A stretch of DNA of 64,000 nt from Neolentinus lepideus HHB14362 ss-1 (Eukaryota > Basidiomycota > Agaricomycetes > Gloeophyllales > Gloeophyllaceae). The position numbers and the translations under genes are program-made. A model generated the notes under the pieces. The model ran no database searches. It was not told the origin of the DNA and saw only the letters and a program-made list of their open reading frames with translations. Of this stretch, positions 18,539-63,841 are shown in pieces; the stretch's first letter is position 1; each line of letters opens with the position of its first letter. The stretch lies in assembly GCA_001632425.1 (NCBI GenBank), contig KV425555.1, positions 454,795-518,794 on the forward strand, written 5' to 3'.

Positions 18539-19920
18539 ATAGTTTTGTACATCAGGCAGGCAGTATTTGGCTCTTATCACACATACGGGATCACTGACTG
18601 TTTGAGACGGAAAGAAGCACTGAATCTGCCATAGAATCTTATGGGCTAGTCGGATCTCCGTCGTGCCGCTGCGGCTTTGGTATACGGTAACGTTGAGAAG
18701 ACCAAGGGAAAGGTTTGGCCAGTATACTGTGTATGCCACAGAGCCGTTACTCGCAAGGAAGCGACGGAAGTAGTGAGTACGTGGTCGGGAACGTCTTCCG
18801 ATTCCGCTCGTCGAGGCACGCGAGTACCAACTCCTGGAGCTCGGAAGCTTCGATCAGCCATTGTATACTCTAGCAAGTCTTCTCGTGACGCAACACATAG
18901 GGGCCTCTTTCTCCATCAACCATGAGACAGTCGTCACAGCGTATCAAGTTCTCATCTTGCTCTTGCTGTTCGACTACGCCTACACGATGTTTTGTTTTCA
19001 CGTTAACGTTTCGTGTCGAAGAGACATATGTGAGATGAGCATGGTTCAGTACTCGCCATCCCTAACGCGTCGCGATATCCTTGATCAAGTTCAGCGTTCA
19101 ACTTACGCTACTGCCAAGCCTGGAAATTGTGCTCTGAAGCGAGCTTCCATGCACCTCTTCCAACGTCTTCTGATTCTCGAAAAAGCCCCGAGTTGCTACA
19201 CAAGACGGAGGTTGCAGATATCGATCACCGTAAGCTTTCGAGACCAGTGTCTACGGTGCTGAATAACGGACTTGGTCTACGAGAAACACGCCCAGCTCAA
19301 AGCTCAGTGCCAAGATCGCCTTAAAGGAGATTACTAGCGCAGGTTCGCACTATGACTCTGATACTGACGATATTATCGCACATAAATTGGGATGCATGAA
19401 TTTCGGGCGCCTTGTAGTAAGCTGTTACTCCCATTATCTCATGACATGGACTTAGTATATCGTCCTCGAAGAATGTAATTCAACAAGCTAGAGTGAAATT
19501 GACCCTATAAACCCGTGTGAACAAGTAACTTGAAGTGTTCTTGGACCAACAGGATTATACAACTTCCATTTATGGGAATGTTGTGATCCGTGATCTTACG
19601 ATCTTAACCTTGCTTCTTATATCCGCGATGTCCGGGGTCACTACGAGTGGCACAGGTTCGACGCTGAAGCGTTAAAACAATAAACAGGCACTCGAGACGG
19701 TCCAGTACTCAGTACCTATATATATATAAGTAGCGTTCATTTGGGTGGCTGGTGAGTTGCGGGTACGACTTCCTGAGTTTTACCAGTTTTCTTTTGCTGT
19801 TCTCACAACTTCTCAGTTATCCTCCCTAGTACTGGATGTATTGCATACCCGAATACCATGACAACCTCTTTATATATCTTTGCTGTGCTTGCCAGCAAAG
19901 CATATGCGGCGCACACCCCA
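18539..19920. other. Intergenic between TSR1 and TKL kinase A
   Basis: About 1.4 kb. The first kilobase has only short frames without motifs. The last part (19540-19870) is a dispersed repeat described separately. Confidence 0.45.
19540..19870. repeat. Dispersed repeat, copy 1 (copy 2 at 40255-40585)
   Basis: Shared blocks in the same order and orientation as 40255-40585: ACAACTTCC(A/T)TTTATG, GTGATCCGTGATCTTACGAT, CGATGTCCGGGGTC, GTTCGACGCTGA and TACCATGACAACCTCT. One copy lies 3' of kinase A (minus), the other 3' of kinase D (plus), but both run in plus orientation, so this is not simply a co-duplicated gene flank. It may be a solo LTR or MITE relic. Confidence 0.65.
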
Positions 19921-21596
19921 TTACCCGCTACTCATACCTTGAAGGTCTCTCATTTGAATCCATACGTCTTTGGCTCGCGTCCTATCGGCCACGTTCCGTT
20001 TCCAGCACGATTTAATGATATCCCAGATATTGTCCGATATCTTTCTCGAGCGTGGAGGCCTCCGAGATAGAAGCTCGTGGTAGATGCTAAGGCCCTTCTT
20101 GTCTCCCCAAGGCCGCCTCCCAGAGTACACCTAGGAGCAAGCAACATGTCAGCAACATATAATATAGCTGGAAGCAGGACGTTACCTCATAGCAGAGACA
20201 TCCAAAGGCGTACATGTCAGCTGCCGACGTGGGATTAAATCCGTTGTCAGATTCCCAAACCTCGGGAGCTCGGTATTGCTCATAGCCCTTTTCGCTGGAT
20301 ATTGCTGAAGTTGTGAAAGACCTGTAGAATTGACTAAGGCCGAAGTCGGTTACCAGCGGCTGCTGATCATGGTCGATCACAATGTTTGCCTGGGTGAAAG
20401 AGAAGGCCATTGAGTACCAAGGGATAATGTGTCGTAGATGTGCACCGCACAGGATGTAAGTCCCCATGGACCATTTCTGGATCATGCGCGTGAAGATAAC
20501 AGAGGGCATCTGCTACTTTCGTGAGCTACCAGCACTGCTATCAGGCATCACTCCACGCAACACAAAACGAATGTTGCATACTATAGAGAGGCGATCGCAC
20601 GCCTGGCCTTCAGGCACTCTCAGATACTCGGAAAGCGTACCGTAGGCGGCCCACGGACTTACGATGCACATCGCGGCCACTTCATGCGGAGAAGTTTCCT
20701 CCCAGTATCGTATTCCAAGTAAAGGGAGAATATTGGCGTGCTGAAGCTGTCTCCATACGACTAACTCGCGTAACCAAGTCTAACCAAATTCCTCATGCAT
20801 CAAACCCTAAACAATATCTGCGCGCTGATGTACTCACCTTCTTTTTGCCCTCTTCCGCAGTTTCGCCCTGTCGCACTGGCTTGGTAACAACTTTGATGGC
20901 CACGCTCTCGCCCAACCACTCCCCCTGATAAACTTCTGCGAAAGCGCCTCGCGCTCGGCATAATGCGGCGCCTGGTCTCTCCAGGTCATAGATGAGCAGA
21001 ACGGAAGGTGCGATCTGGCGTTTGTAGCTGATCTTCCGCAACGCGGTATAACATGACATTCTGAAGGAATTCATAACTCTTGACGGCGTATCTGATTCTC
21101 CATATGTCGGTGACCAGACTGGCATGTTGTCGACTGTCTAAGCACTCGTGTATAAGCCTTGGACACGGAAAATAGGTATTCAGGGTCACGTACGAGCTGT
21201 AGCATGTTCACAAAATGGCTGACTATATCCTGATGAAGATCACTTATATGATTATCCACCGCGTTTAGCTCCGTCAAACTCTTCATCGTTGGTTCAAAAT
21301 CACTCGTGTAGTAAATGGAGGACAGACCTGGGGGAGTGCAGTCGTCTGTCACGGATGCTCGAATGCATGATGCATGACGTTGACTTACTGGTGATCATGT
21401 CAGAAAAGTCCCGTTGCACTCCAGGTACAAGTAAAGCCTGCGCCTCCAGCGCCTGTTGCTCGATATCTTCGACAACGCTAGTCACTGCTGCGATCTGCTC
21501 GTGCAAACGGCTGCTATCGCAATTTGGGCCGTGCGCCTTCTGGACAGAGAGCTTGACAAGGCCCGCAATAGTGGAGGGAGCGTCCACGGCAGCCAT
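19921..21596 (-). CDS. TKL-like protein kinase A
   Basis: Predicted serine/threonine kinase of the tyrosine-kinase-like group, 442 aa. Minus-strand exons: 21596-21389, 21327-21194, 21137-20838, 20779-20582, 20525-20451, 20389-20186, 20130-19921; GT-AG throughout. Residues 1-114 form an all-helical N-terminal region (contains AAVTSVVEDIEQQALEAQALL). The kinase domain has a glycine loop (RGAFAEVYQG), the VAIK lysine (Lys196), catalytic loop VHGDLHP+ANIVID (Asp302), VTDFGLSQF (Asp320), APEVWESDNG and YAFGCLCYE. The catalytic-loop lysine is replaced by His. Exon lengths match kinase D, its closest relative here. It follows AgaK-like gene F1 on the same strand by 510 bases. No signal or membrane segment, so probably a cytosolic signalling kinase; substrate unknown. 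Confidence 0.92.
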
Positions 21597-22106: not shown

Positions 22107-23444
22107 TTATGGAAGCGGTACTGCGGGAGTCCGCATGATAATGTACTTGATACGTCGTCTCCAGTGGACAAGAGACCGATATATTTCGATCATAGCAACG
22201 GAGTCCCGTTCAGCGACGCGAGAACGTAGCTTCCAGCTGCTAAGGGACTTTTGAATGTCTTCGAACCGAGCTACCACTTCATCTATTGTTGGTCGTTTGG
22301 ACGGATCATTCTGAACCATGTCGGAAACGAGGGGCTCCATAAACTCGAACCCATACTTTGCCTAGACATTTGCTCAGGAGATATTCGTTCGAGAGAGTCA
22401 GAGACGCACCTGGATGAAATCTTCCCGTATCATGTTCCCCAGATAATAAATATCAGTCGGGAAGGGATCTACGGGTTCGTCAGAATTTTGGAATTCCGGG
22501 ACACTCCGGTCACCACCCAATATCGGCGGTTCACGCGGGGGGCCATCTTCAGGACTGTACCGCCTGGAAATGCCGAAGTCCACAAAGTAATATTTTGCAG
22601 GTCGTTCTGTTCGGCTGTAGTGCCTGGCCCAACCACTAACATCGGGTTTCACATCAGTGTTCATTGGATGGAACCCGCCCGGATAGAGATGTATTCCGTC
22701 CATCATTATATTACGTCCATCGCAGTCCCTGATAGATACGTGAGTGATACGGTAGACTCTCGTCACTAAGAAAGTAATTCTGGCAGACCGATGAGCTACA
22801 TGAAGGGTATGCATGAACTGGAGACCCTAAATACAGCTTAGGTAGTCTTCGAAGTGAAGGGAGAAGGCAGCGAACCTCGAATACCTGCTTGAAGAACGCA
22901 ATTGTTTCACCGAAAGTATCAAATGCGGGAGAGTCGTAGTCGCACAGGAATGGCATGACAAGTAGTACTAAATCGTCCTCTTCAGGCGGGTCAAGAACCT
23001 CTAGGATCGGGACACAATGATTCCTGAGATCAGAAGCAAGAGCCCCCGACGATAGAAAGAGGCCAATCTCCACCTCGTACGGATGCCGAGACTTAGCCAC
23101 TTGCTTTAGAATGACAAGAGATCCATCAGACATACGCGTCGCGTCAACGACATTTTGGTCCTGATAATCATATCGAAACATTCAGCCTGCACTGGAAAAG
23201 AAAAGGTACATACCCGTGCAGGAATCCCATCTTCACATTTGAAAAACATCTTTTTAGTGCCCTTCCACGACGGTGTCCACGTTTCGTGGTATCTAGCCCT
23301 CAGCATGTAACCGGACTGCTCGAGCCATTTCTGACGATGCCGCCAGGATAGTTCCGATCTGGTGAGGTGTCCAGGCTCTGAGGGATCAAGCGGCTGGTTG
23401 CGTAGATCGTCGTCGGCGCCATCGCCTCCAGCATCTGCAGACAT
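22107..23444 (-). CDS. AgaK-like protein kinase F1
   Basis: Predicted protein kinase of an agaricomycete-expanded family, 375 aa; the name AgaK-like is my reading of the family and not verified. Minus-strand exons: 23444-23214, 23160-22876, 22826-22789, 22728-22410, 22361-22107. The N-terminus has the family signature (WRHRQKWLEQSGYMLRARY, then TPSWKGT and CEDG). The kinase core shows DATRMSDGSLVILKQV (N-lobe lysine), LVMPFL, GLQFMHTLHVAHR spliced to DCDGRNIMMD (HRD catalytic loop), FVDFGISRRY and DPFPTDIYYLGNMIRED. It ends with the conserved KLRSRVAERD...RTPAVPLP. A 38-base exon splits the HRD motif. It is the upstream partner of kinase A. Divergent from kinase B, with a 362-base shared upstream region. 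Confidence 0.92.
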
Positions 23445-23806: not shown

Positions 23807-26072
23807 ATGGATCAGGAACCGCCCAGACCGATAGATGTCATTCGAGCATCCAAGACCCCCTTACCAGGACTTCCAGCTTGGCAGTTGCGGGCCGCGGACG
23901 AGGCGATGGAGCTTGGGTACGATCGTATGCAGTCCTATGGCTCAAGAATGGACAAAAAGGAGCGCGAGAGTGTCAGAAACATGTATATAAAGTACGGGTT
24001 GCATATCATAATGTTCTTCGATTATGAAATTTAACATCTTGACTATTAGTGTTGTTGACATGCGCAAGGCAATAGGTGAGAGGGTGGACACCTTTGGAGG
24101 CTCCTACGGCAGTATGTTCGACATTATAGGACTACGTAACGAAGCACGACGGTTTAAAAAGCGAGCTCGAGTGAGAAATCCAATCTCGGTATCATTGGGC
24201 AGTGGCTTACCGGACTTCGAACAGAAATCCACTGAGATACGCAGGTCTTTGGCTCACGCAAACGAAGAAAATCGACCACCCCTGCCAATCCGTCAGTCGT
24301 CCTCTACCTGTACGTCGTCGAATCCCTACGAGTCAAAACTGCGTCCTAAATTTACACTAATGCAAGCGGACACCTCTCTTATGTCTCCAACCACAGTTTC
24401 AGGCAGCAGTTTTGCTAGTGGAAGCGAAAGCGTAACCGTTGTCTCCCCGACTCTGGAATCGCCGGTCGAGAAGACTACTGATGATATGGATGAGAAGGAA
24501 TTGATGGAGTCCTTACTGTTGTTATCGCCAGATGATCAGGCTCTTGCCGAGGAACTTCTACGTATGTTCCTGTTCCTGTCTCCATCCTCCTTGTCTTGAA
24601 TGTACACGTTATATTTTCGTAGGGGTCGCCAATTTAGCGAACGAAAGCTGGTCGGAATTTGGGAGTGCAGTGGAAAAACTTCTCGATCAGCCCCACAAAA
24701 CTCTGGATAACGTGAAGGATATGCCGGAAGCGATAATAAAGGTTGTGCTGAATTTATTGCAACGCGTGAGTCTTGATGATGTGTATCGCGTCACCATGGA
24801 GGGCGTTACATTTGCGGGTATAGGCTATTATGCATTACGATCAGAACCAAGGAAGCGGTGTCTCAACTTCATTTAGGGATGTCTGCGAGGTGGTCTTAAG
24901 AAGAATCTGCCATCATAGAAACCTACTCCCTCGCTGCATTTATGTGTCCATCGGGTTGTGCCACGAGCAACGTATAGCTCACGGAGGGTCGGGCTCAATC
25001 TACAGCGCTGAACTGAACGGCCAAGTCGTTGCAGTGAAGACATTCCACACAGAAAAAGATGTCGCTCTCAACACCATGCAGGAAACGGTATGACTACTCG
25101 GATGTCCTCTTTGAGTGACTCATATGCTACCTCGGTTCAGAGATTTGTCCGCGAGGCCATTGCATGGAAACAGCTCAATCATTCAAATATCCTCCCCCTT
25201 CTAGGCGTGTGTGATCACGTTCCACATCTTGGCCTTGCGGGATTGATTTCTCCATTGTGCGAAAGCGATCTGATTGACTACATCCGAAAGAACAAAGAGG
25301 ACAAAGAGAAATGCAATCAAGTCTACATGGTAGGTCTCTTGGTTATTCATCTCACTACTAGCTCTCACTTCAATATTTCGCGAAGCTCGAACGTATTGCA
25401 GGTGCACTCCATTATCTGCACAGCCACGACCCTCCACTAGTGCATAGGGATATAAAAGGGGTGCGTCCTGATTACAGACAATGACTCCACTTTTCTGACT
25501 GACCCGACGGCGCAGGCAAACATTGTGGTGAAGAACGGCGAGCCACAGCTGACCGACTTCGGCTTGACTACTTTCAGCAACTCATTCACAGTGTCGGCAG
25601 AAAGGGCAGGTGACGGAACTTACCAGTTTCAAGCTCCTGAAACATTTCCGCCGGCACCTCGTCCCAGTGATCTCAATGGAGAGACCAATCAGGAACAAGA
25701 GGCAAGCACTGAAGAAGCCGAAGATGAGATGGAGGTCACCGTCGTCTTCGACGAGCGCCGGCGTCTACTGGCGCCACCGTGTGACATGTACAGTTTTGCG
25801 TGCCTCTGCTTCCAGGCGCGTCAATTGTATCTATTTTGCATTCAAATACTGAATTCGCACAGGTATACGCTCTGACCATGCCCTGGAAAAATGAGGAGCA
25901 GGTGTCGGTCGCCTATAAAGTAACTCATGGACGTCGTCCCCCTCGTCCGGCCGGGAATGTTATTCCGGACCCTGTCTGGTCCCTCATGCAGGAATGCTGG
26001 CCGCAGGAACCGCAACGCAGACTGACGAGCGGTGCTGCTCAGGATAAACTAAGAGACATGCTAAATCCGTAG
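23807..26072 (+). CDS. TKL-like protein kinase B
   Basis: Predicted TKL-group kinase, 625 aa, eight exons: 23807-23991, 24050-24561, 24623-24765, 24824-25087, 25141-25329, 25386-25460, 25516-25815, 25863-26072. The intron 25816-25862 begins with GC (CAG|GCGCGT) where paralogues have GT. Residues 1-280 are a helical and Ser-rich N-terminal region. The kinase domain has HGGSGSIYSAEL, VAVK (Lys352), LNHSNILPLLG, catalytic LVHRDIKG+ANIVVK (Asp453), LTDFGLTTF (Asp470), DMYSFACLC and a C-terminal PGNVIPDPVWSLMQECW. An insertion before DMYSF (about 45 residues, many Glu) is shared with pseudogene E, so B and E are sisters. All catalytic residues are present; the product is likely active and cytosolic. 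Confidence 0.92.
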
Positions 26073-36577: not shown

Positions 36578-37891
36578 ATGTCCACCTCCGTCCCGGCTGA
36601 AGAGGAGGTCGAGCAACCTGCAAGGGAACCTGGCTCTCTGAACAAACCGGAGCTGTGGTGGCGAGATCACCAGAAATGGCTCGAACAATCTGGTTACATG
36701 CTCAGGCAGCGATATCGTGATGCGTGGAGTCCATCCTGGAAGGGCACTGGCAAAAAATGGTATGACTGTGAGGACGGCGTAACTCCACGGGTACGTAGTC
36801 CATTGTGCATCATCCGACCTTGCTCACTGTTGTCAGAACGCGGTCATGCTTGACGCTACTCGGATGTCAGACGGATCCTTGGTTGCTTTGAAGAAAGTGC
36901 ACAAGCCCAGTTATCCCTATGAAATTGCGATTGCTTTACTCTTCTCGTCCGATGCTCTGGCCTCTGACCCAAGAAATCATTGTATCCGAATTATCGAGGT
37001 CCTGCAGGTCCCGGATGACGAAGATTTCGCTATACTTGTCATGCCATACATGAGGAAGTACGATTTGCCTCGCTTTGACACTTTTGGAGAAGTCGTATCT
37101 TTTTTCATCCAAGCATTCGAGGTTCGCTTTCTCTTATTTCGTGACGTTCTCTGACGGAGGGTGTCATCTAGGGATTGCAATTCATGCACGCTCACCTGGT
37201 CGCTCATCGGTTCGTGCGCAATACATTACTGTAGTTCTGGTCAATGTTGATGTTTTGGCTCTCTCAGGGATTGTGACGGCCGCAATATCATGATGGATGG
37301 GGTACATTTGTATCCCCAAGGTTTTCATCCAGTAGACACTATTATGAAGCCGGACATGAGTGGCTGGGCTAAACACACTACCCGTACGCTGCATCCTGTC
37401 AAATACTATCTCGTGGACTTCGGTCTATCGCGACGATATAGCGCTGAAGATCTTCCTCCTCGCGAACCGCCCATAAGGGGCGGAGATAAAAGCGTACCGG
37501 AGTTCCAGCACTCTGATGAGCCAGTGGACCCGTTCCCAACCGACGTTTATTACCTGGGAAATATGATAAGGGAAGGCTTCATTCAAGTACGTGTTCCTTT
37601 TCGTACTCTTTCTTGTCCGCTGATGGGACATCGCAGAAGAGATACGGCTTCGAGTTCATCGAACCTCTCGTCTCTGACATGGTCCAGGACGATCCCTCAA
37701 AACGGCCAACAATGGACGAAGTCGTGTCTCGCTTCGAAACCATCCGCAAGTCGCTGAGCAGCTGGAAGCTGCGGTCTCGCATTGCTGAGCGGGATGAGCT
37801 CGCCATAATCGAATTCTACCGGGCTATTATTCATTGGAGACGACGCATTGGGTATTTCATCCGCCGAATACCTGCTGTGCCCCTTCCGTGA
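36578..37891 (+). CDS. AgaK-like protein kinase F2
   Basis: Predicted kinase of the same family as F1, 369 aa. Exons: 36578-36790, 36837-37121, 37172-37209, 37268-37586, 37637-37891; the last four have exactly the same lengths as in F1 (285, 38, 319, 255). Key motifs are QKWLEQSGYMLRQRY, LDATRMSDGSLVALKKV, LVMPYMRKYD, GLQFMHAHLVAHR joined to DCDGRNIMMD, LVDFGLSRRY, DPFPTDVYYLGNMI and the terminal RIPAVPLP. Asp of HRD and of DFG and the downstream Asn are present, so it is probably catalytically competent. It is followed after 487 bases by TKL kinase D on the same strand, the same arrangement as F1-A. Confidence 0.93.
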
Positions 37892-38378
37892 ATCCCTTTC
37901 GGTCCTTGTCACCTCGGAGACTAATGCCGTTGTCCACTCGTTATCTACATTTACAATATACCATGACATCCTATTTTGTTTTCCGGTAATGGTATTTAGG
38001 AACTGCGAGTCGCATCGACAGCCCAATCTTTTCCCGTTTGGTCAGGTGCCAGATTCCCACAGGTACAGGCCTACACCGTACCTTTTTCTTTCACGCTGTG
38101 TTTCAGCGTCTTCTAGTCCGGTCAACGCACAAATGGCTCGATCGTCGCCACAGGTCCTGCGTACAGTGCCCCCTCATCTTGCGTCGCGATGGCAATTTCC
38201 CGTACTGTAACAAAGAGCCTCCGTCGCCGACTCCACTGGGCAGGCATACATTGTACAAACTTTGCACGAACAAGCATGGGGGTAACCAGCCGCAGTTGTC
38301 CGAAGGAGTGGTAACATGCAGGCAGGGGAGGGGGTATATGAACACCAAGCAGAACTACACGGCAACATCTCTAGATTA
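37892..38378. other. Spacer between F2 and kinase D
   Basis: 487 bases without a supported gene; equivalent in position and size to the F1-A spacer (510 bases). Confidence 0.5.
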
Positions 38379-40018
38379 ATGGCCACCGTCGCGACCCTCA
38401 TCGCTCAGTCCATCTCGAGGCCATATGGCCAGCACTACGATGCGACGCAGATGGAGGAGCAAAGGCAACTTGTGACTGCGTTGGTCCAAGGCGAGGAGGA
38501 CCAAGCACACGTCGCTAAGGCTTCGCTGACTGGTGACGAACCGAAATTTGGTCTCGCCGATGATATAACTAGTGAGTGGACTCGCCCTGCTCAGGCCACG
38601 AGTTATTGTAATCGTGCTGTAGGGCTGACCGTTCTCTACACGGAGGACCAAGCACAATTTGAACGTACAATGACGGACTTGACAAATATGGAGATCGTGA
38701 AGGAGAATATAGCAGCTCTTCCGCCCCAAATTATCCAGCATTTTATGAATGTGCTCCAACTAGTGAGTATTAAGTCTCGCACGTTTGACGTCGAGATAAA
38801 AACCAAAGTGACTCTGCCTAGGTGGTAGACAACGCAGCGGTCTGGTCCAGCGACCCTGAAGTAGAAGATCGAGCTCAGAATCCGTTCAGAATGCGCTGCC
38901 ACAACGCGCTGCGAAGGCTCAGCTACAAGTGCAGGATGCTTCCCTCGGCTCTGATGATTCAAGGCACGCAGCAACCAATGGTGATAAGGCACGGCGCCCA
39001 AGGCTCTTTAGCTAACGTCTGGGTGTCACATTGGATGGGTCGAACCGTAGCCGAGAAGAGATTCCACATTCCGGAGGATGCTGATGCTAGAGAGGAGACC
39101 ACGAAGGTGCGTGTCGCATTCCTTCGGGCGTTATTAACTATGACTGAATGTTTTATCAGAGCTGTTACCGAGAGATAATGCTTTGGAGGCAGCTATCGCA
39201 CAAGAACGTTCTGCCTCTACTAGGCGTCATCGTAACCGGAGACCCTGAAAGCGAGACGCTGAGCTTGCTATCACCGTGGGCGGAGAGCGGCACAGTCACA
39301 AGATATTTGAAGAGGTCGATTCGGAAGGGCGAGGATCCCGACCGGCTTGGAATTGTAAGAAAGCGTGCATCTGAAGAAGCAACATATGCCTGATACAGAA
39401 TTTTGTTTAGCTCATGAAGGTAGCGGACGTGCTTGCATATATGCACTCGCACGACCCTCCAATGGTACACGCGGACATTCATCCCGTACGTATGCTGGCT
39501 GGCGCCTACTCTTCGATGCTATCTTACAGTTTCACGCCAGGGAAATATTCTGATCGACGAAAAGCCCGAGACGTTCGTAACCGACTTTGGCTTCAGTCGC
39601 TTCTCGGGGTCGTTCACGACTACGGGAAACAATCGCGCCAAGGGCATCCCTGCGTATTGGGCGCCGGAGCTCTGGAAGGAAACGGGCAGGTGGAAACCGT
39701 CGGTAGAAGCTGATGTGTATGCGTTCGGGTGCCTTTGCTTCGAGGTGAGCTCCATTACTCAACGTTACACCAAGATTCTGACTGCAGCAGATATATACTC
39801 TAAAAGCGCCGTGGTCGGGCTTAAGCAACTATTATATTGAGAAGCGGGTGGCGGCAGGAGAGAGGCCTGAGCGTCCATTAGAGGCCATACCCGATGCCGT
39901 TTGGGACATCATCGAATCTTGCTGGCAGGATGACCCTAAGGACAGGATGAGCATGAAGAACGCGTGGATTAGGCTGAAAGCATTGCACGATACTAGCAGG
40001 GGCAGACTTGAACAATAA
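38379..40018 (+). CDS. TKL-like protein kinase D
   Basis: Predicted TKL-group kinase, 440 aa, seven exons: 38379-38571, 38623-38762, 38822-39106, 39160-39354, 39411-39485, 39541-39744, 39788-40018. Same exon layout as kinase A. The N-terminal helical region (MEEQRQLVTALVQGEEDQAHVAKASL, in pieces) is followed by LTVLYTEDQAQFERTMTDL and then the kinase: GAQGSLANVWVSHW (degenerate glycine loop), VAEK, catalytic MVHADIHP+GNILID (HAD for HRD, His for the loop Lys), VTDFGFSRFSGSF, YWAPELWKETG, YAFGCLCFE and IPDAVWDIIESCW. Catalytic Asp and DFG are kept, glycine loop and loop Lys are not canonical, so activity may be low or regulated. Downstream member of the F2-D cassette. Confidence 0.92.
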
Positions 40019-41036: not shown

Positions 41037-42668
41037 TTGGACGATCCATCCAGCGCAGCGTCTCATGAAGCGGACATTAATGAAATGGTCAAGCTCTTGG
41101 CCTCTATGCCGGAGAAGAGTGACTTCTCCCAGGTAATCCTAGGTATGTTGGGCGCCTCAGGTTTCCGTCTTGGTCCTCAAGGTTTGGAATTCCCACCCGT
41201 AGGGGTTGCTATGTCAGCGAAGGAAAGCTGGCAGGAATTTGCAGCTAAAGTAGCCTGTCTGCTGAGGACACAAAGGCAACCACCGAATCCCTGAAGGACA
41301 TGCCCCCGCTCATTATAACAGTTAGTCTCAATATGTTACAACGCGTGAGTCTTGATTCAAATATTGCCGTCTTGCGACCTACACATAGGGTCCCAGGCTA
41401 AAATCCTCTACGATCTCAATGAAGGAAGCGGCGTTTCGGATTCTTTCCGGGAGGACTGCGAGACGGTCTTAAGAAAAGTTAGTCACAAGACGGGCGTCCT
41501 CCCCCCTTGTCTCTACGTGTCCATCACATTGAGCGAAGAAGGTGTTGTTGCGAACGGTGCGACGGCCCATATCTACAAGGACAGAATGGGTGATACGATT
41601 GTCGTTGTAAAGATGTTCCACAAGAAGCAACACGAGGGAGGATATACCAATGTCAAGCAGCTAAAGGTGCGATTATGCGGCGGACGATGTTGTGTTTCGG
41701 TCTTTCATCCTCGCATTTCAGAGGTTCCGACGGGAGGTTATTGTATGGAAGCAGCTCAATTACCCAAATATTCTTCCTCTGTTGGGCGTTTGCGGGTCCG
41801 TGCAGGGGGTCGGCATTTTAGGATTGGTTTCCCGGTTCTGTGAGCAAGGAAGTCTGATTGATTATCTTTACGAGAACAAGGAGTGCAATCAGGTCTACAT
41901 GGTGAGCTATCTAATTTATAATTCATTACGTGCTATTTCCTCAACTTTTCGTGGAGCTGGAACATGTCGCAGGTGCACTCAGTTATTTGCACAGTCATGA
42001 CCCACAAATAGTGCACAGGGATGTGAAAGGAGTGCGTCTTGTCTTCCTGTGTCACACCACCTTCCCGCCATTGACCGTCCGAGATATTAGGGAAACGTCG
42101 TCATATCGGCAGGCGAGCCACGGCTGACTGACTTGGCATAAGCACCTTCAATCAATCGTTTACTCTAACGTCAGAGAATCCCGGGAGCGGGACTGACCAC
42201 TTTCAAGCTCCGGAAACGCTTAGGGACGACGGTAGGGCGGATGCCAGCACCAGTGAACGAGGTGCTAGGGTCTCTGGAGAAAGTGGGAAGACCGGCGTCA
42301 AGAAAGACGACGTACCAAAGGATATCGTATTCGACGAGCGTCGGCGCGAGCTCACACCAGCGTGCGACATGTACAGTTTCGCCTGCCTATGCATTGAGGT
42401 ACGTTGATTCCTTCTCTTCAATCTTGGCGGTCCAGAAGCTGAACTTGAATGTTTATAGGTTTACACACTGCAGTTACCCTGGGGCAAACTGAAGGACACC
42501 ACGATTGTTCCCTGGGTGTTGATCGGTCTTCGTCCTCCTCGCCCGACCGGGAACGTTATCCCGGACCCTATCTGGTCGCTCGTGCAAAAGTGTTGGCCGC
42601 AGGAACCGCAAGATAGAATGACGAGTGGCGCTGCTCAGGAAGCTTTGAGAGCCATGCTGAATCCGTAG
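41037..42668 (+). pseudogene. TKL-like kinase E, frameshifted
   Basis: Sister of kinase B with at least two frameshifts. Homologous exon pieces: about 41037-41155, 41206-41345, 41397-41666, 41722-41901, 41957-42031, 42091-42398, 42459-42668. A one-base loss near 41264 breaks the third helical exon (frame changes between CLL and EDTKATTESLKDM). A second one-base loss at about 42133-42136 destroys the DFG motif itself: the sequence reads GAC TTG GCA TAA where GAC TTT GGC ATA is expected. All splice junctions and the rest (VVVK, VHRDVKG, DMYSFACLC, NVIPDPIWSLVQKCW) are still clean, so inactivation is fairly recent. Sequencing error could mimic one lesion but hardly both. Confidence 0.88.
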
Positions 42669-55890: not shown

Positions 55891-57197
55891 CTATGCTGGC
55901 ATGGGCACAGCAAGCGTCCGCTTGACGATGTACTCGACCCGTTGATAGCAGTGGCCGATGCTCCGGAAGATGCCCTCGACGGTGCTTTCGTCACGAGGAA
56001 CGACCCCTGACCACAGCTTTGACGTAGGGAGAGTCTTGCGAATCTCTCAGAATCGCTTGAGCACCTCCATGGTGGGCCGCTTGTCAGAATTTTCGTGGAC
56101 CATGTCAGAACGCCAAGGGCTGACGGAACTCAAAGCAGATGTTAGGCTATAGTACAGATAAGCATTAGTTGAGGTAAGCTAGACTAAAAATGTCGCTCAC
56201 TTCCATCAACTGCTTCCATACCACGTTACCCATGTAGTATACGTCTGTCGGAAATGAATTTTAGCTCTTTGTGGAATTCTGTTCCAAAGCAGCAGGGTGA
56301 TGCCCTGGAGCTGATTTATCACTACCCTGCAAGATCTTTTCTATCGGAGGCATGTCTTCCACTCTACAGCGGCGGGTCACGCCGAAGTCGATAAAGTAAT
56401 ACTTCAACAGGTTGCTGCGTCCGGGTATGATGCCTGACATCGCCCTTAAATCTCTCCAGAGGTTGATCCGTACAGGATGGAACACATCTGGGATAAAGCT
56501 GATGTATCTATCATGATATTCCGCATGTGCAGTCCCTTGAATTCAGATGAATGTTGAATATGGACGGGTAAGAGCAATTTCGCTTACCTATGTGCAACTG
56601 GATGTTTGTGGATAAAATGCAATTCATGAGAGCACTGTCCAATCAGGTATAGAGACGGAACGCTCACTTGCACGGCTCACCTCGATAGTCTACTAGATGA
56701 AAGATATTCCGATTGTATCAAATGCAGGGTCGTCCCAAAATTCGAAGGAATGGCGAGAATTTGCTGCCCAGCATCGTCCAGTACGTCCAGTATTTCATAT
56801 GTCGGCACGCAATGGTTCTGAGGATCGGCTCGAAGGATGAGAGAATACTAATTTTGCCTTCTTCGGGCTCGCAGAGCTCTAAATTACGTTTCAGAGCGAT
56901 GGCAGTGCCATCGGACATGCGGACGGTGTCCGTGAGTTGAGCATACTAGTTCTGACTTAAGTAGAATGAGCCGCAAAGATAAGATGGTCACAAACCGGGG
57001 ACATTCGCCCATCCTCACAAGATATCCTCTTCCTTGCACTACATTTCCAGGATGGGACCCATTCTGGCATGAAACGTGGTCTAAGAATGTAGCCTCGACT
57101 GTGGAACCATTGTTGGCTGTCGCACCAAAACACCTTGCAGGTCTCCTTCGACACCGGTAGCAGAAGCCATCTGAAGAGTTTTTGGGTCGTCAGGCAT
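55891..57197 (-). pseudogene. AgaK-like kinase F4, decayed copy of F3
   Basis: Minus-strand remains of an F3-type kinase: start MPDDPKTLQ (57197; F3 starts MPDDPDTSQ), then after a frame change near 57140 QQWFHSRGYILRPRFMPEWVPSW, then MSDGTAIALKRNLELCEPEEGKI with a frame change at about 56820, a catalytic-loop region near 56520, KYYFIDFGVTRRC, an in-frame stop after NSTKS (about 56261), and the end KRTLAVPMP with TAG at 55891. Several frameshifts and stops; it cannot make a kinase. The duplicated 3' flank shows that F3 and F4 arose by segmental duplication. Confidence 0.9.
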
Positions 57198-57867
57198 AGC
57201 GCACACCTGCATCCCTGACTTGCTCCACCGGGTGGGATCACACCTCACCCCCTGCCCAAACCATGTCAACAAGACATAAATCTCCCATTTAATCTAAGTT
57301 CGCGAGGCCAACAAGATTCGTGGAGGAATAAGCCAAGTAGAGAACGAGCCAGTTCAGAGCACCAAGTGCTGTGCAGTGCGTGTATGTCAGTCATGATGTG
57401 GCTGCAGTCACCTAAGGGTGGTTGGATTCAGGGAAAACCGGAACCCTTTTACTGACAACGCAACTCGCCGCCACAGTTAGCGTCTATCCTGCAGTTGGCC
57501 TCGATGTTGGGACAAGGTTGAGCAGCGCGAGTCGAGCCAAGTTGAAGCTATTTCGAACTGCACGCACTGATACTGAGCACGTGGAGGCCATGTGGCGCGC
57601 GCCACCCGTTTTCTCTTTTCACGTGCTTCCCCTTCTTGCTCGTCGACGCTAGGCTCGTGACCACCTCCCTTTCACTCTCTGTCCAGTGGTTGGGTATAGG
57701 CCGATTTAGTTGAGTCGCTAAACGACGCGTTTGTGGCTTCACCCTGAACCTCGTGCCCGGCTCCCGCATTCAAGTTCGTGGTGCCACATCTTGCCACATT
57801 CCCGGTCATGTGTCTGCAGTTATCTATCACGTGATTTTCACCGGCTTTGTCAGCCCGAGCCTCCCCG
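57198..57867. other. Intergenic, no gene seen
   Basis: A short palindrome GGCGCGCGCC near 57596; only short frames otherwise. Confidence 0.4.
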
Positions 57868-58022
57868 GCCTTGAAAAAATTGTCAGACATTTCCGTACCC
57901 CATTATAATTGAAAATTGATCTAAATGGATTTAAATGGACTTTTACCCTCATCTTGATCCATTTCATTCATCTTTCCCCTAATAATCGATTATAACGGGG
58001 CACGGAAATTTCCGACAAAGGC
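57868..58022. mobile_element. Inverted-repeat element (MITE-like)
   Basis: Imperfect terminal repeats: left ATTTCCGTACCCCATTATAA (about 57889-57908) and, from the right end reverse complemented, ATTTCCGTGCCCCGTTATAA (about 57987-58006), extended outward by GCCTT...GTC(A/G)GA on both sides. Total about 155 bp, AT-rich core, no coding capacity. Target duplication not clear. Confidence 0.6.
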
Positions 58023-58141
58023 TCTAAAATCTAGACTCGCTCCGCTGGCCGTAGTTCGTTTAGACAGCTCGCGCCCGAGTGTTTGTACTGGTTTGCGTAG
58101 TGTAAACAGTGACCTCGTCACGCTAATTTGCCCCTTCTCTT

Positions 58142-58350
58142 ATGCCTCCGCCAGTGTCTATAGAGTTGCAACGGCGCATTATTGTATGGTATTATGAGTA
58201 ACATCTCGATGTTCCAGAGATTGTTTGACTCTAGTCTCTCCGGCCATTGCAAGGCAACAATCCACAATATCTTGAGGCTCCACGAGGATTATAGCGACAT
58301 TGTACACCCTTTCACCCAATCTGCAGGACGCAAAAGGGCTTTAGAGCTTT
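58142..58350 (+). pseudogene. Tc1/mariner-type transposase relic
   Basis: Begins ATG CCT CCG CCA and reads VSIELQRRIIVWYYE followed by a stop; the DVPEIV block comes next and, in another frame, TIHNILRLHEDY and HPFTQSAGRKRAL. This order is the N-terminal helix-turn-helix part of basidiomycete Tc1/mariner-like transposases. Only this part remains; no DDE catalytic region was found. Confidence 0.6.
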
Positions 58351-58815
58351 GCCCTGGACGGTAAGCATTATTACCGCATTATCAGCTCACCGACGATTCG
58401 AATGATATGCATAAAGCATAGCAATAGAGAACACAAAAGGTCCGGTTGGATGCATCACTGTTTGTGAAGTACAAACTAGTACAAATACTCGGGCGCGAGA
58501 CGCGGCTGTCTAAACGAATATGCAAAGCACTGCGCTGGCACCGCCACTACCGCGCTAAGTTCCCTTTTGTGGCCGTCCCTTTCCATCCCTTGTGGATCGA
58601 ACAATCATGTTTAGTACTAGCCGCCGCTGTTACATTTGATCCTTGCGTTCTAATTTCTTCATGCTGCTTCCTAATACTGAAACATGCATTGTTCACGCCG
58701 CTTCCTGATAATCTAGCCCCACAGGGCCACATGTGGCGTCGATCCCGCTGTTATAAGAGAGCAAAGTGCATTGGCTGACCAGACCCTCGTCTTCGAACGC
58801 TACGAAACCTGGATC
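58351..58815. other. Upstream region of the chimeric kinase gene
   Basis: No gene; one 110-codon plus frame at 58446 has no motif and is taken as chance. Confidence 0.4.
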
Positions 58816-60848
58816 ATGCCTCATCCCGCAGTCATAGCGAAGCTTACCGACAACTCCCTCCGGAAAGTCTACGGCCAGAATTTTGATGCCGTGCTTTTGA
58901 ACGAGCAAATCCGCATTGTGTCGCAGGCAGTCGAAAGCGTCGAGGGACAGGCTGAAGACGCTATAGCTTCAATCACATCTGGCGAAGCGGGGTATGCTCT
59001 AGCTGAGAAAATTAGTCGTGAGTGCTGTTCTACTTTCGATATGTCGACTGTAGGTCTAACGAATGTCAACCACAGGTCTGACTGTCCTCTATGAAGTTGA
59101 CAGGACACAGTTCGAGCAAGTAGTGACGGATCTGACATATGAAGGCACTGTAGACAACGACATTTCGACACTTCCCAAGATCGTCATCCATCACCTTGTG
59201 AACATGCTGCAATTTGTATGCATTGTCTTTTCTTTCATCGAAGACTAAATAATTCTGCGATAGACGATCGATTATACACCTGTCTGGTTAGGTCGCTCGG
59301 ATACAGCTTCACGCACTCTGAATCCTTTCCGAGTCCAGTGCGAAAATGCACTACGGAGGCTTAGCGACAAGCACCGGATAATCCCCTCTGTTATGTTAGC
59401 TCAAGGCACACAGCAGTTGAACCAAATTGCGTTCTCAACCGTTGGCAGCTATGCGCATGTTGTCAAGTCCGAGTCGGAGTGGCTTGGACAACATGTTACC
59501 GAGAAAGTCTTCAAAGCTGCGAATGAGGAAGAGCAGAAAGAGAAGCAGAAAAAGGTATGTCCAACATTAGAGCGGGATTATCTCGATGAGCCCGGTGCTC
59601 TGCTCGAATCAGAACTGTTCTGGCGGCGGCACCAGAAGTGGCTCGAACAGTGCGGTTACATGCTCAGGCCTAGGTATCACGACAATTGGTGTCCATCATG
59701 GGAGGGAACAGAAAAGAAGTGGTACAGATGTGAAGATGGCATACACCCATGGGTACGCACGTCAGTTCGAACCGTTCTGACCGTATGGTTGATGCCCAAC
59801 AGCGGGTGGGTGTCCTCGACGCGACTCGTATCTCCGACGGCTCACTTGTAGCTCTCAAGCAAGTGCTCAAGTCTAGGCATCCATACGAGGCCGAGATAGG
59901 CTCCTTCTTCTCATCGGAAGCTCTCGTCTCCGACCCTAAGAATTACTGTATTCCCCTCCTGGAGGTGCTCCAGGTCCCAGATGACGAGGACCTGACCTTA
60001 CTTGTCATGCCTTTTCTACGCGAATACGATTCTCCTCATTTTGACACCGTTGGTGAAGTTGTCTCGTTCTTCAGCCAAATATTTGAGGTTCAGTATTTTC
60101 CTACCTTGTTATGAACCCATCTGAGACCATATTAGGGCCTACAATTTATGCATGCTCATCATGTTGCACATCGGTACGTTACACTTATTTCATTTTCGTA
60201 TTAGTATTTATTACCTGTCGACTCAGGGACTGCGATGGACGCAATATCATGATGGACGGCGGGCATCTATACCCTAAAGGCTTTCATCCATCTGACGGAG
60301 ATATGAAACCCGACATGAGTGGCATGGCCGAGCACTACACCCGAACCCAGCGCCCAGTCAAGTATTATCTCGTGGATTTTGGCATATCGCGTCGTTACAA
60401 GGCTGAGGACCTCCCCATTCGTGAACCACAGATCTGGGGCGGTGATAGGACTGTTCCGGAGTTCCGAAAGTCGGACGAGCCGGTAGATCCTTTTCCAACT
60501 GATGTCTACTACCTGGGCAACATGATACGGAAGGACTTTCTCAATGTCAGTATCTCTTACCTCAACCACCTCTTTGTGCTCATAAATTTGTAGAGGAAAT
60601 CTGGCTTCGAGTTCATGGAGCCTCTGGTCGCGGACATGGTCGAGGACGATCCTTCCAAACGACCTACCATGAATGAAGTGGTATCACGCTTTGAGGGTAT
60701 CCGAAAATCCCTCAGCAGCTGGAAGCTGCGCTCTCGAGTTGGCCACCAGGATGAGCTTGGCTTTATTGAAGCGTACCGATCTGTTGCGCACTGGAAGCGA
60801 CGTTTTGGATATGCTGCTCGGCAGACTCCGGCTGTGCCTCTCCCGTGA
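58816..60848 (+). CDS. Chimeric kinase: TKL N-terminal part fused in frame to an AgaK-like kinase
   Basis: Predicted 575-aa protein from exons 58816-59017, 59076-59215, 59264-59752, 59803-60087, 60136-60173, 60227-60545, 60594-60848. Residues 1-211 match the first three exons of kinases A and D: helical region (IRIVSQAVESVEGQAEDAI), LTVLYEVDRTQFEQVVTDL, NPFRVQCENALRRLSDKHR and the N-lobe to the beta-3 lysine (HVTEKVF). At 59554 kinase D has its donor; here GTATGT is present but the frame runs straight on into ESELFWRRHQKWLEQCGYML, the AgaK N-terminus, whose own ATG is missing. The complete AgaK kinase follows (DATRISDGSLVALKQV, VAHR+DCDGRNIMMD, LVDFGISRRY, RQTPAVPLP). The last four exons have the family lengths 285, 38, 319, 255. 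Skipping 59555-59752 would also keep frame. No stop or frameshift. Confidence 0.87.
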
Positions 60849-61634
60849 AAATACGGTGGATGCCGTTTCGCTCGTCAACAATTTCCCGGCTTTGCTGTCT
60901 GCTGTCGACACTGTTGTCTACTCCACCGCTCGTTAACTGATTTCTGTCTTCTCATCGCATATCTACGTAGTGACTGCGCGTGGCGCCGTATACTTCGGTT
61001 GTAATATGCGCATACTACCTGTACTAAGCAGCAATGAACACCCTGATTCAATATATCGCAGCGGTGACTAAACTTTTCCCTCTGCTCCGTCCCAACCGTT
61101 GTTCAACTTTGCACGAGCTTGCATCCAGTGTGGAGCGCGATCTCTGAGATGTGTCATTCGGCTGGAATTGGCGTTGAGGAGGGTGTTCGCCGGCACTGAG
61201 GCCTTCGGGTGTGCTCTGACAATCTATTGTTCCAGGTTTGACAGAAGAAGGTGCTATAGCCGGAAACTCGCAGTATGTGACATTAATATTACGACTTTGT
61301 TTGACAGTGTGGACGATACGCAGGTCCATGTCTTGATAAATTCTGATGCGCTCGCCGTGAGGACCAAGTATACTGGTGGCAGTTGGGCCGATACGTTGTC
61401 TGTCTTACCGCACCAAAATATAGAACATTATACTTGGCCCGTTAGCGACTCACTCCCCTACGTGGTTTACACCCGTGGTTACGAAAATGTTCTGTGTCCA
61501 TCCCAGCCCACCACATGGCCGCTGCTCATTTTCTTGAAGGCTGTTTATCAGTTTCCAAAGGGGAGAACCGACTACCGAGAGAGAGAACAATGCCATTGAG
61601 TACCGAACCTCACAGCAGAACAAGAACTATCGAA
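60849..61634 (+). other. Region between the chimera and kinase J, one long unsupported frame
   Basis: A 166-codon plus frame at 61099-61599 has no ATG at its 5' end and no recognised domain (contains KYTGGSWADTLSVLPHQN). It may be chance or an exon of an unknown gene convergent with kinase J. Confidence 0.3.
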
Positions 61635-63841
61635 TTAGGTAGTCAACATGGCCTGAAGAGCCTGCCGAGCGTCGTCGCTCGTCATCCTCTGCTGTGGATC
61701 CTGCGGCCAGCATTTCTCCACCAAGGACCAGACCTGCTCGGGAATGACATTTCCAGGTGGACGCGAAGGTCGCTCACCATTTCGCACCCGCTTCTTCACC
61801 ACTGCGTTGTCCATAGGTCCAATCTCACTCCACGGATCTAACAGGGTGTACATCTGCGCAACGACAACTGAGAGATGGCAACCAAGAAAGTAGGTAGGGC
61901 GAACCTCGAGGCAGAGACATGCAAAGGCATACATGTCGATGGCTGGTGTTACTCGCGCCCGCATTTCTTTGTAGAGCACGGATTCGTCTTCAAAGATCTC
62001 TGGTGCCATCCAACGAGTGGTACCGATGTGCGCCCTCTCATGACTCACAGTAGTAGAATTGGCGATCGTGCTTATGCCAAAGTCAGTTAGGCGTGGCTCA
62101 AAACCGTCGTCCACGACAACGTTGGCCTATAGTGCAATCGGTTAGGCAGTCCTATCATCATATCAACGGATATGTATACCAGCCTAAGATCCTTATGTAC
62201 CAGTTGATACTTATGATTATGCAGATAGCATAGAGCATCTGCAATGCGAGCAAGCTTGTACAAAGTCAATATGTGCCTGAAGGAATAAACCTATAGGTTG
62301 CTTACGAGACTGATGCGATCGACGACCTCATTGTTGCGAGTTTTTGCCTTCAAGTAGTTCCGGAGATTTCCGTGCTGACACCAGGCCGAGATCATGCCCG
62401 GCTTGTTCGGAGAGAGGCCGTCAAATTTCTCACAGATCCCGATGAGAGGAAGAATGTTCGGGTGTTGAAGCTGCTGCCATAACATCGCTTCACGATGAAA
62501 TGTCTGAAGAAGAGTCAGCTGCCACGAAGATACAACGCATCTTCACATATACCTTCAAGCCTTGTCGCTTTTCCTCATCATTATCAGAATCGTTTCCGTA
62601 AATAATCTTCACTGCCACCTTTGTCCCTCCGAGTTCGCCTCTGAAGACCGAACCGTGGCCTCCGTTGACAAATTCCATGGAGAGACGGACTTTGAGGTCT
62701 GTGACGTACATACAAGGAGGAAGCAATCCCGCCTTGTAACTCACTCTTCTCAGAATCTTTTCGCACTCAGTGGCAGAAAGGCCTTCGGTGGCACGGCAGT
62801 CATTACTTGCCTGACAGGAGAGCAGACGTTAGGTGTGTGGACGGATTTCATCAGTATGATAACGTACTCGTTGCAGCATGTCCAAAGCAATCTCTATGAT
62901 AACATCGGGCATGTCTAGCAGTGACTTCACTAGATCTTTCCGCAGGAGTAGCGACTTTACGCCAAGCCTGAACTTTGTGTCATCAATTCCTGCAGAGCGC
63001 GCTGTGTCTTGAAATGGGGTTCAATATAACAGTGTAAGCATATACCGTCACAATGGATGCACGCTGATGACATTGTACTACCGACTCACCAATGATAGCA
63101 AGGCTCAACTTCGTCTCAGCTTCTCCTTGGATGTTTTGTCGAAGCCAATCCATTATATTCTCATTCCAGAGTGTTTCGTATAGTTTGAGCTGCCGTTCCG
63201 GCATAGTATCGAGACTGCTATCACTGTTGGGGCTCAAGACTTCCACGCTACTGCTGGAAGAAGCTATGGCAGTGACACTACAGCATGAACGCCGCACTCG
63301 TCTTCAGAATGATTCGGGTGGCACTCACAACTATCGGAAGAGCCAGAGGGTCGTGGCGATTCGATGATCCGGTCATACATACTCTCCCTAGATCGCTTGG
63401 GGTTTACAGATGACATGAGCGCGGCCTAAACAACAGAGGCGCTCGCTTACTTGGGCCGACGTATAAAATTTCCGAGCCAACTTTCGAAGGGACCAAAGGT
63501 CGGGAATCGCTTTACATGAGCCTTTCCACGTCACTGTATTTTCCTTCAGTTCATTCCGCAGCCTAATCAGTCTGATCATTGTGTTAGGTAGAGGTTTGGA
63601 AAGATTGGCGGAACACTTACGATCCGTATAGACCGTTCAAGGTCAATCTATCTGTGGCCGACATATCCTTGTGACAATATGCCCAGTCGCAATAAGCCAA
63701 GCGCACAATAGTGTCCGACCCTTCCAAAAGCGACTTCGCTAGCGGGCCCTTTGCTTTTCGGGAGGAGACAAATACTTCTCCCGCTGGCAAGTGTCCCGAG
63801 ATTCTGGTATGCAGCAGTGAGCCCTGTGATGTGGCAGACAT
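61635..63841 (-). CDS. TKL-like protein kinase J
   Basis: Predicted TKL-group kinase, about 567 aa. Minus-strand exons: 63841-63621, 63571-63451, 63425-63383, 63296-63090, 63007-62868, 62810-62553, 62503-62306, 62254-62180, 62126-61905, 61853-61635. Exons 3 and 4 are the least certain: the donor GTATGT at 63382 and acceptor GAG at 63297 were chosen because they are the only pair of normal length that keeps frame. The N-terminal part resembles kinase C (LIRLRNELKENTVTWKGSCKAIPDLW, in pieces). The kinase domain has GGHGSVFRGELGG, VAVK, HPNILPLIG, LVHKDLRL+ANVVVD, LTDFGISTI, GTTRWMAPEIFED, DMYAFACLCLE and PSRPPGNVIPEQVWSLVEKCW. Catalytic residues are present, with HKD in place of HRD as in C. 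Confidence 0.87.

Follow-up and report, generated by a model that had tools for sequence, protein, structure and literature searches.

On the plus strand of the window (the whole 64,000-nucleotide stretch of Neolentinus lepideus DNA that was analysed, lying in an assembly of 33.8 Mb and 168 contigs), positions 58816-60848 hold a chimeric gene in which the front of a TKL-type kinase gene runs into an AgaK-like kinase gene. At the DNA level the chimeric gene is real in this assembly, and its predicted product is probably a fusion protein. The gene model consists of seven exons, giving 575 codons and a stop, and is open throughout; its six introns are all of the GT-AG type and 48-58 nt long, so that a single open frame and its splice sites span both parts. 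A preliminary description of this DNA had proposed seven intact exons and two halves in one frame, with a TKL front and an AgaK-like remainder, and both points are borne out, the latter by matches to the TKL and AgaK-like genes of the window itself. On balance, we favour the explanation that this is a rearranged chimeric gene in which an old splice donor is read through to give one protein of 575 residues.

The kinase cluster and the two halves of the chimera

The window contains two cassettes, each composed of an AgaK-like gene followed by a TKL gene on the same strand, at 23444-19918 (minus strand) and 36578-40018 (plus strand), the two genes being 510 and 487 nt apart, respectively. In the first cassette (A), AgaK-like copy A (22107..23444, minus; similarity and an exon model) lies upstream of TKL copy A (19918..21596, minus), of which exons 1-3 were modelled and the later exons are placed by similarity only. 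The second cassette (B) comprises AgaK-like copy B (36578..37891, plus; similarity and an exon model) and TKL copy B (38379..40018, plus), for which seven exons were modelled, encoding 439 aa with a complete kinase domain (PF07714, 4.9e-36). Two further AgaK-like copies were pieced together from similarity blocks, namely copy C (51541-50257, minus) and copy D (L031), which is located outside the window at 457-1750, near the start of contig C52. A decayed AgaK-like copy carrying frame breaks and stops adjoins the chimera on the minus strand (57169-55897), and two additional AgaK-like matches outside the window (L032 and L033, on contig C70) are partial or contain stops. More TKL-type kinase matches occur at 25150-26060, 34946-34096, 41731-42656 and 62768-61638, and the window thus represents a kinase gene cluster. 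Both halves of the chimera are nearest to genes of the two cassettes, in agreement with the earlier proposal that they group with AgaK-TKL cassettes.

The TKL-derived part encompasses exon 1 (58816..59017), which carries the ATG start, ends at a GTGAGT donor and is, over its open frame, 38% identical at the aa level to its counterpart in TKL copy B; exon 2 (59076..59215), with 48% aa identity to exon 2 of copy B and the same length of 140 nt; and the first 291 nt (59264..59554) of the chimeric exon 3 (59264-59752), which encode a linker plus the beta-1 to beta-3 strands of the kinase, lysine included, with approximately 40% identity to either TKL copy, A or B. Taken together, this 211-residue N-terminus exhibits 39-42% aa identity to exons 1-3 of TKL copies A and B and retains their intron phases. 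Lysine 195 is invariant across the three TKL copies and was taken as the beta-3 lysine; the N-lobe had been described as reaching up to this residue, which is indeed present, but the TKL part extends a further 16 residues beyond it. An alignment of exon 3 is poor, placing the TKL strands on the AgaK element.

No Pfam family was detected at the curated cut-off in the TKL N-terminus, which the preliminary description took for a putative helical, sensor-like domain. In profile searches against solved structures, the end of the TKL part matched the first N-lobe strands of activin/TGF-beta receptor kinases weakly (E 0.007-0.3), while the strongest matches of the N-terminal profile were to designed leucine-rich repeats (positions ~78-121, best E 3e-7), which may reflect either one motif of that kind or a chance likeness to consensus repeats. 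In window coordinates, the stretch over which the TKL profile resembles a single leucine-rich-repeat motif corresponds to 59076-59290, i.e. exon 2 and the start of exon 3. The chimera has no full TKL-derived catalytic domain bearing the HRD and DFG motifs and is therefore not itself a TKL kinase: TKL similarity stops at ~59554, and beyond this point the same strand is devoid of a TKL catalytic part of the subgroup. A genome search with the TKL part of exon 3 listed four places: besides the query, these are copies A and B and a single distant match on contig C1. A search for an orphaned catalytic part of a TKL gene from this subgroup, using copy B as the source of the query, revealed no clear candidate: the 81 matches listed were led by copies B and A, the best piece of copy A scoring 62.5 bits and the best match elsewhere among those listed 46.7 bits (contig C7). 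It is possible that a diverged orphan catalytic part exists elsewhere in the genome.

The AgaK-like part begins within exon 3 (59555..59752), where a conserved N-terminal element precedes the kinase and where likeness to the AgaK copies starts at ~59585, with 68-70% identity to copies A and B versus 55% to copies C and D. It continues through exon 4 (59803..60087), encoding the kinase N-lobe; exon 5 (60136..60173), carrying the H of HRD; exon 6 (60227..60545), with the remainder of the catalytic loop (RD...N) and the DFG motif; and exon 7 (60594..60848), with the C-terminus and stop. The lengths of these last four exons (285, 38, 319 and 255 nt) are identical to those of copies A and B as modelled, and the motifs VALK, HRDCDGRN and DFG can be read directly. 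Pfam kinase matches are confined to this half of the chimera (PF00069 at residues 281-443, 3.1e-10; PF07714 at residues 359-396, just above the cut-off). With its Pkinase domain, N-terminal WR..Q.WL..GYMLR element and exon structure, the chimera belongs to the AgaK-like kinase subgroup of this genome, an assignment made from an alignment of five copies and from exon lengths. AgaK1 is the family name used in Coprinopsis cinerea; 'AgaK-like' is employed here as a provisional label for a putative relationship to it.

Constraint on the chimeric gene

Since two abutting pieces would yield an open and in-frame junction by chance in about one case in five (~0.20-0.22), the shared frame alone is weak evidence; it counts for more that all exons are intact and that the AgaK part is conserved. 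The same chance figure lends some credit to the view that the chimera died recently, in which case the rearrangement would have stripped away the AgaK promoter and start along with the TKL catalytic portion, leaving a frame shared by coincidence and kept by no selection; that copies do die in this cluster is evident from the decayed AgaK-like copy next to the gene. However, not a single stop, frameshift or splice lesion is present in the 1725 nt and 24 splice-site bases of the chimera, and if the gene is dead, neutral change since its death amounts to less than ~1.0-1.9% (for assumed indel-to-substitution ratios of 0.15-0.05).

To gauge how well the AgaK part is conserved, departures were counted at columns where the other four copies all agree, using only columns with letters in all five. 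For the chimera this gives 7/144, compared to 14/151 for copy A, 10/147 for copy B, and 11/148 and 6/143 for copies C and D, the latter two being similarity-block assemblies (329-335 codons aligned) that may or may not be live genes. The N-terminal element is free of the seven departures, the earliest of which occurs at column 127. The AgaK part thus departs no more than its relatives do, which speaks against a dead gene and indicates that this part was constrained until at least recently, although this constraint may predate the join.

Codon positions provide a faint hint in the opposite direction. Of the changes in the AgaK part that are specific to the chimera's lineage, 60/120 are at third positions, a smaller share than in copy B (87/136, p = 0.03), as might be expected if the AgaK part were relaxed, but not significantly smaller than in copy A (76/139, p = 0.46). 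For the TKL part, the lineage-specific changes by codon position number 35, 21 and 37 in the chimera, 43, 32 and 38 in copy A, and 27, 20 and 35 in copy B; the three copies all change rapidly here, and the counts therefore tell little. Weighing these observations, we regard a recently dead chimera as doubtful, and prefer a gene that is read as one protein.

The junction and the former splice donor

As had been proposed, the frame crosses the former TKL intron-3 donor at 59555 (GTATGT, preceded by AAG; 59555..59560, now coding) without encountering a stop. The position and phase of this donor coincide with those of the end of exon 3 in the TKL copies, at 20838 (minus strand) and 39106 (plus strand), where the sequences are GTGAGT (copy A) and GTGCGT (copy B). 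Scored with a matrix trained on the 19 modelled donors, the chimera's own six included, the old donor reaches 7.7 bits, inside the 2.5-10.5 range of those same donors, and 1.8% of the plus-strand GT sites in the window score equally high. It is thus of normal strength, and could still be used, fully or in part: the nearest acceptor, a CAG at 59612, would define an intron of 58 nt, a normal length, and splicing from 59555 to 59612 would produce a short protein of the TKL N-terminus with a frameshifted tail, the AgaK part being left untranslated or translated only from unspliced transcripts. The AgaK frame would be destroyed by such an intron, while the nearest frame-keeping acceptors (59635, 59638 and 59650) imply introns of 81-96 nt as against 46-61 nt in all 19 modelled introns. 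The stretch 59555-59612 lacks a YTRAY branch-like motif, yet this absence weighs little since 11 of the 19 modelled introns also lack one under the same rule. Splicing at these sites, by leaving the AgaK part untranslated, fits badly with the conservation of that part unless the join is very young. Continued use of the donor appears unlikely to us.

The AgaK-like gene had also been described as having lost its start codon, a statement that has to be qualified. AgaK-like copies A and B start with ATGTCT and ATGTCC, respectively, and ATGTCC is also found in the chimera at 59557, overlapping the old donor, but its ATG is not in the frame of the AgaK part. Either coincidence or descent from the original AgaK start may account for this ATG, and in the latter case the breakpoint would lie where donor and start overlap. 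An ATGTCY has a chance of ~0.02 of occurring within 31 positions, yet at 5 of the 34 GTATGT sites of the window CY comes next. The idea that two genes merely abut here, with an AgaK gene starting at this very ATG, its offset due to assembly error or recent mutation, and the TKL exons a remnant, draws on this resemblance to the starts of copies A and B but is improbable, as the frame from 59557 meets a stop after 10 codons, the TKL exons carry no lesions, and the junction stretch has no long homopolymer that would make an indel error specially likely. The only in-frame ATGs of exon 3 are at 59393, in the TKL part, and at 59660, inside the conserved AgaK element; a product with the whole of that element must therefore use a start within the TKL exons or one other than ATG.

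An assembly misjoin at a repeat was also considered and is judged unlikely, as a DNA search that ignores simple and very common words revealed no second near-identical copy of 59420-59720 in the genome, and the window has no run of N. With this segment as the query, the search returned only the segment itself and a 73% match to AgaK-like copy B over 112 nt.

Origin of the join and relation to known kinase fusions

In the favoured explanation, that of a chimeric gene read through its old donor, a rearrangement within the cluster of AgaK-like and TKL kinase genes would have severed a TKL gene at its exon-3 donor and joined its promoter side, together with exons 1-3, to the body of an AgaK-like gene. 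Transcription would proceed from the TKL side, the old donor would most likely be read through, and the 575-residue product would consist of a TKL N-terminus and partial N-lobe (beta-1 to beta-3, with no catalytic loop) followed by one complete AgaK-like kinase. The TKL piece may now regulate or place the AgaK kinase, and we infer that it most likely supplies location or partner binding.

Unequal crossing-over in a cassette array had been put forward as the source of the join. The order, TKL first and AgaK second, is indeed the product expected from a deletion or an unequal exchange between tandem cassettes. Such an event should also leave a same-strand AgaK sequence upstream and a TKL sequence downstream, but remnants of this kind are missing beside the gene: at E 1 or better, no same-strand AgaK match was found in 57001-58815, where only the end of the opposite-strand decayed AgaK occurs, and no TKL piece in 60849-61640. 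Unequal crossing-over between tandem cassettes is a possible but only partly supported origin of the chimera.

Directly upstream of the chimera, 57875-58018 is a short inverted-repeat, MITE-like element with diverged matches, among those listed, at 27 other places in the genome. A second terminal-inverted-repeat element occupies 58055-58530, with 28-nt arms at 58068-58095 and 58472-58499; its relatives on contigs C102 and C20 are 81% and 76% identical, and split matches lying ~0.7 kb (C3) and 2.9 kb (C93) apart may be longer versions of it. No RNA family was identified in 57000-61700 at the gathering score, and, as one would expect of a fungus, collections of prokaryote genomes and viruses yielded no homologues.

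The chimera's nearest known counterparts are tandem kinase proteins of plants, WTK1 (Yr15) being one example; gene fusion is given as the origin of 40 of 92 such proteins (PMC6170490). The likeness consists in the joining of kinase parts of different families in one gene, and since cross-family fusions are known in plants from that report, the chimera is not a new kind. Plant tandem kinase proteins carry two kinase or pseudokinase domains (PMC6170490), whereas the chimera keeps only beta-1 to beta-3 of the first and is accordingly not a tandem kinase protein; its kinase families are also different, its host is a fungus, and no phenotype is known for it. Among fungi, an expansion of TKL kinases is reported in Laccaria bicolor (PMC2838846) and an expanded TK-like lineage in Agaricomycetes (PMC3937382). 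Exons 1-3 of the chimera are likewise of the TKL type, a likeness that implies no match of lineage, but the TKL catalytic core of those kinases is missing from it. AgaK-like copies A and B share with the chimera the sequence identity, final exon lengths and N-terminal element set out above, but start at their own ATG, whereas the frame of the chimera starts in the TKL exons. No report of a TKL-AgaK fusion was found in open-licence full texts, among queries that did not pair both families as a fusion.

Going one step further, it is conceivable, though we hold this only tentatively, that the gene encodes a working protein in which a fast-evolving TKL N-terminus with a stranded half N-lobe controls, or serves as bait ahead of, an intact kinase of another family; such a protein would parallel, in a fungus, the tandem kinase fusions of plants and would have been built from families that were already adjacent as cassettes. 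If the fusion protein is made, an expanded fungal kinase cluster would have yielded a new architecture by joining neighbours, as is the case for plant tandem kinases, and the chimera provides a straightforward way to ask if overriding an old splice donor can give rise to a new protein.
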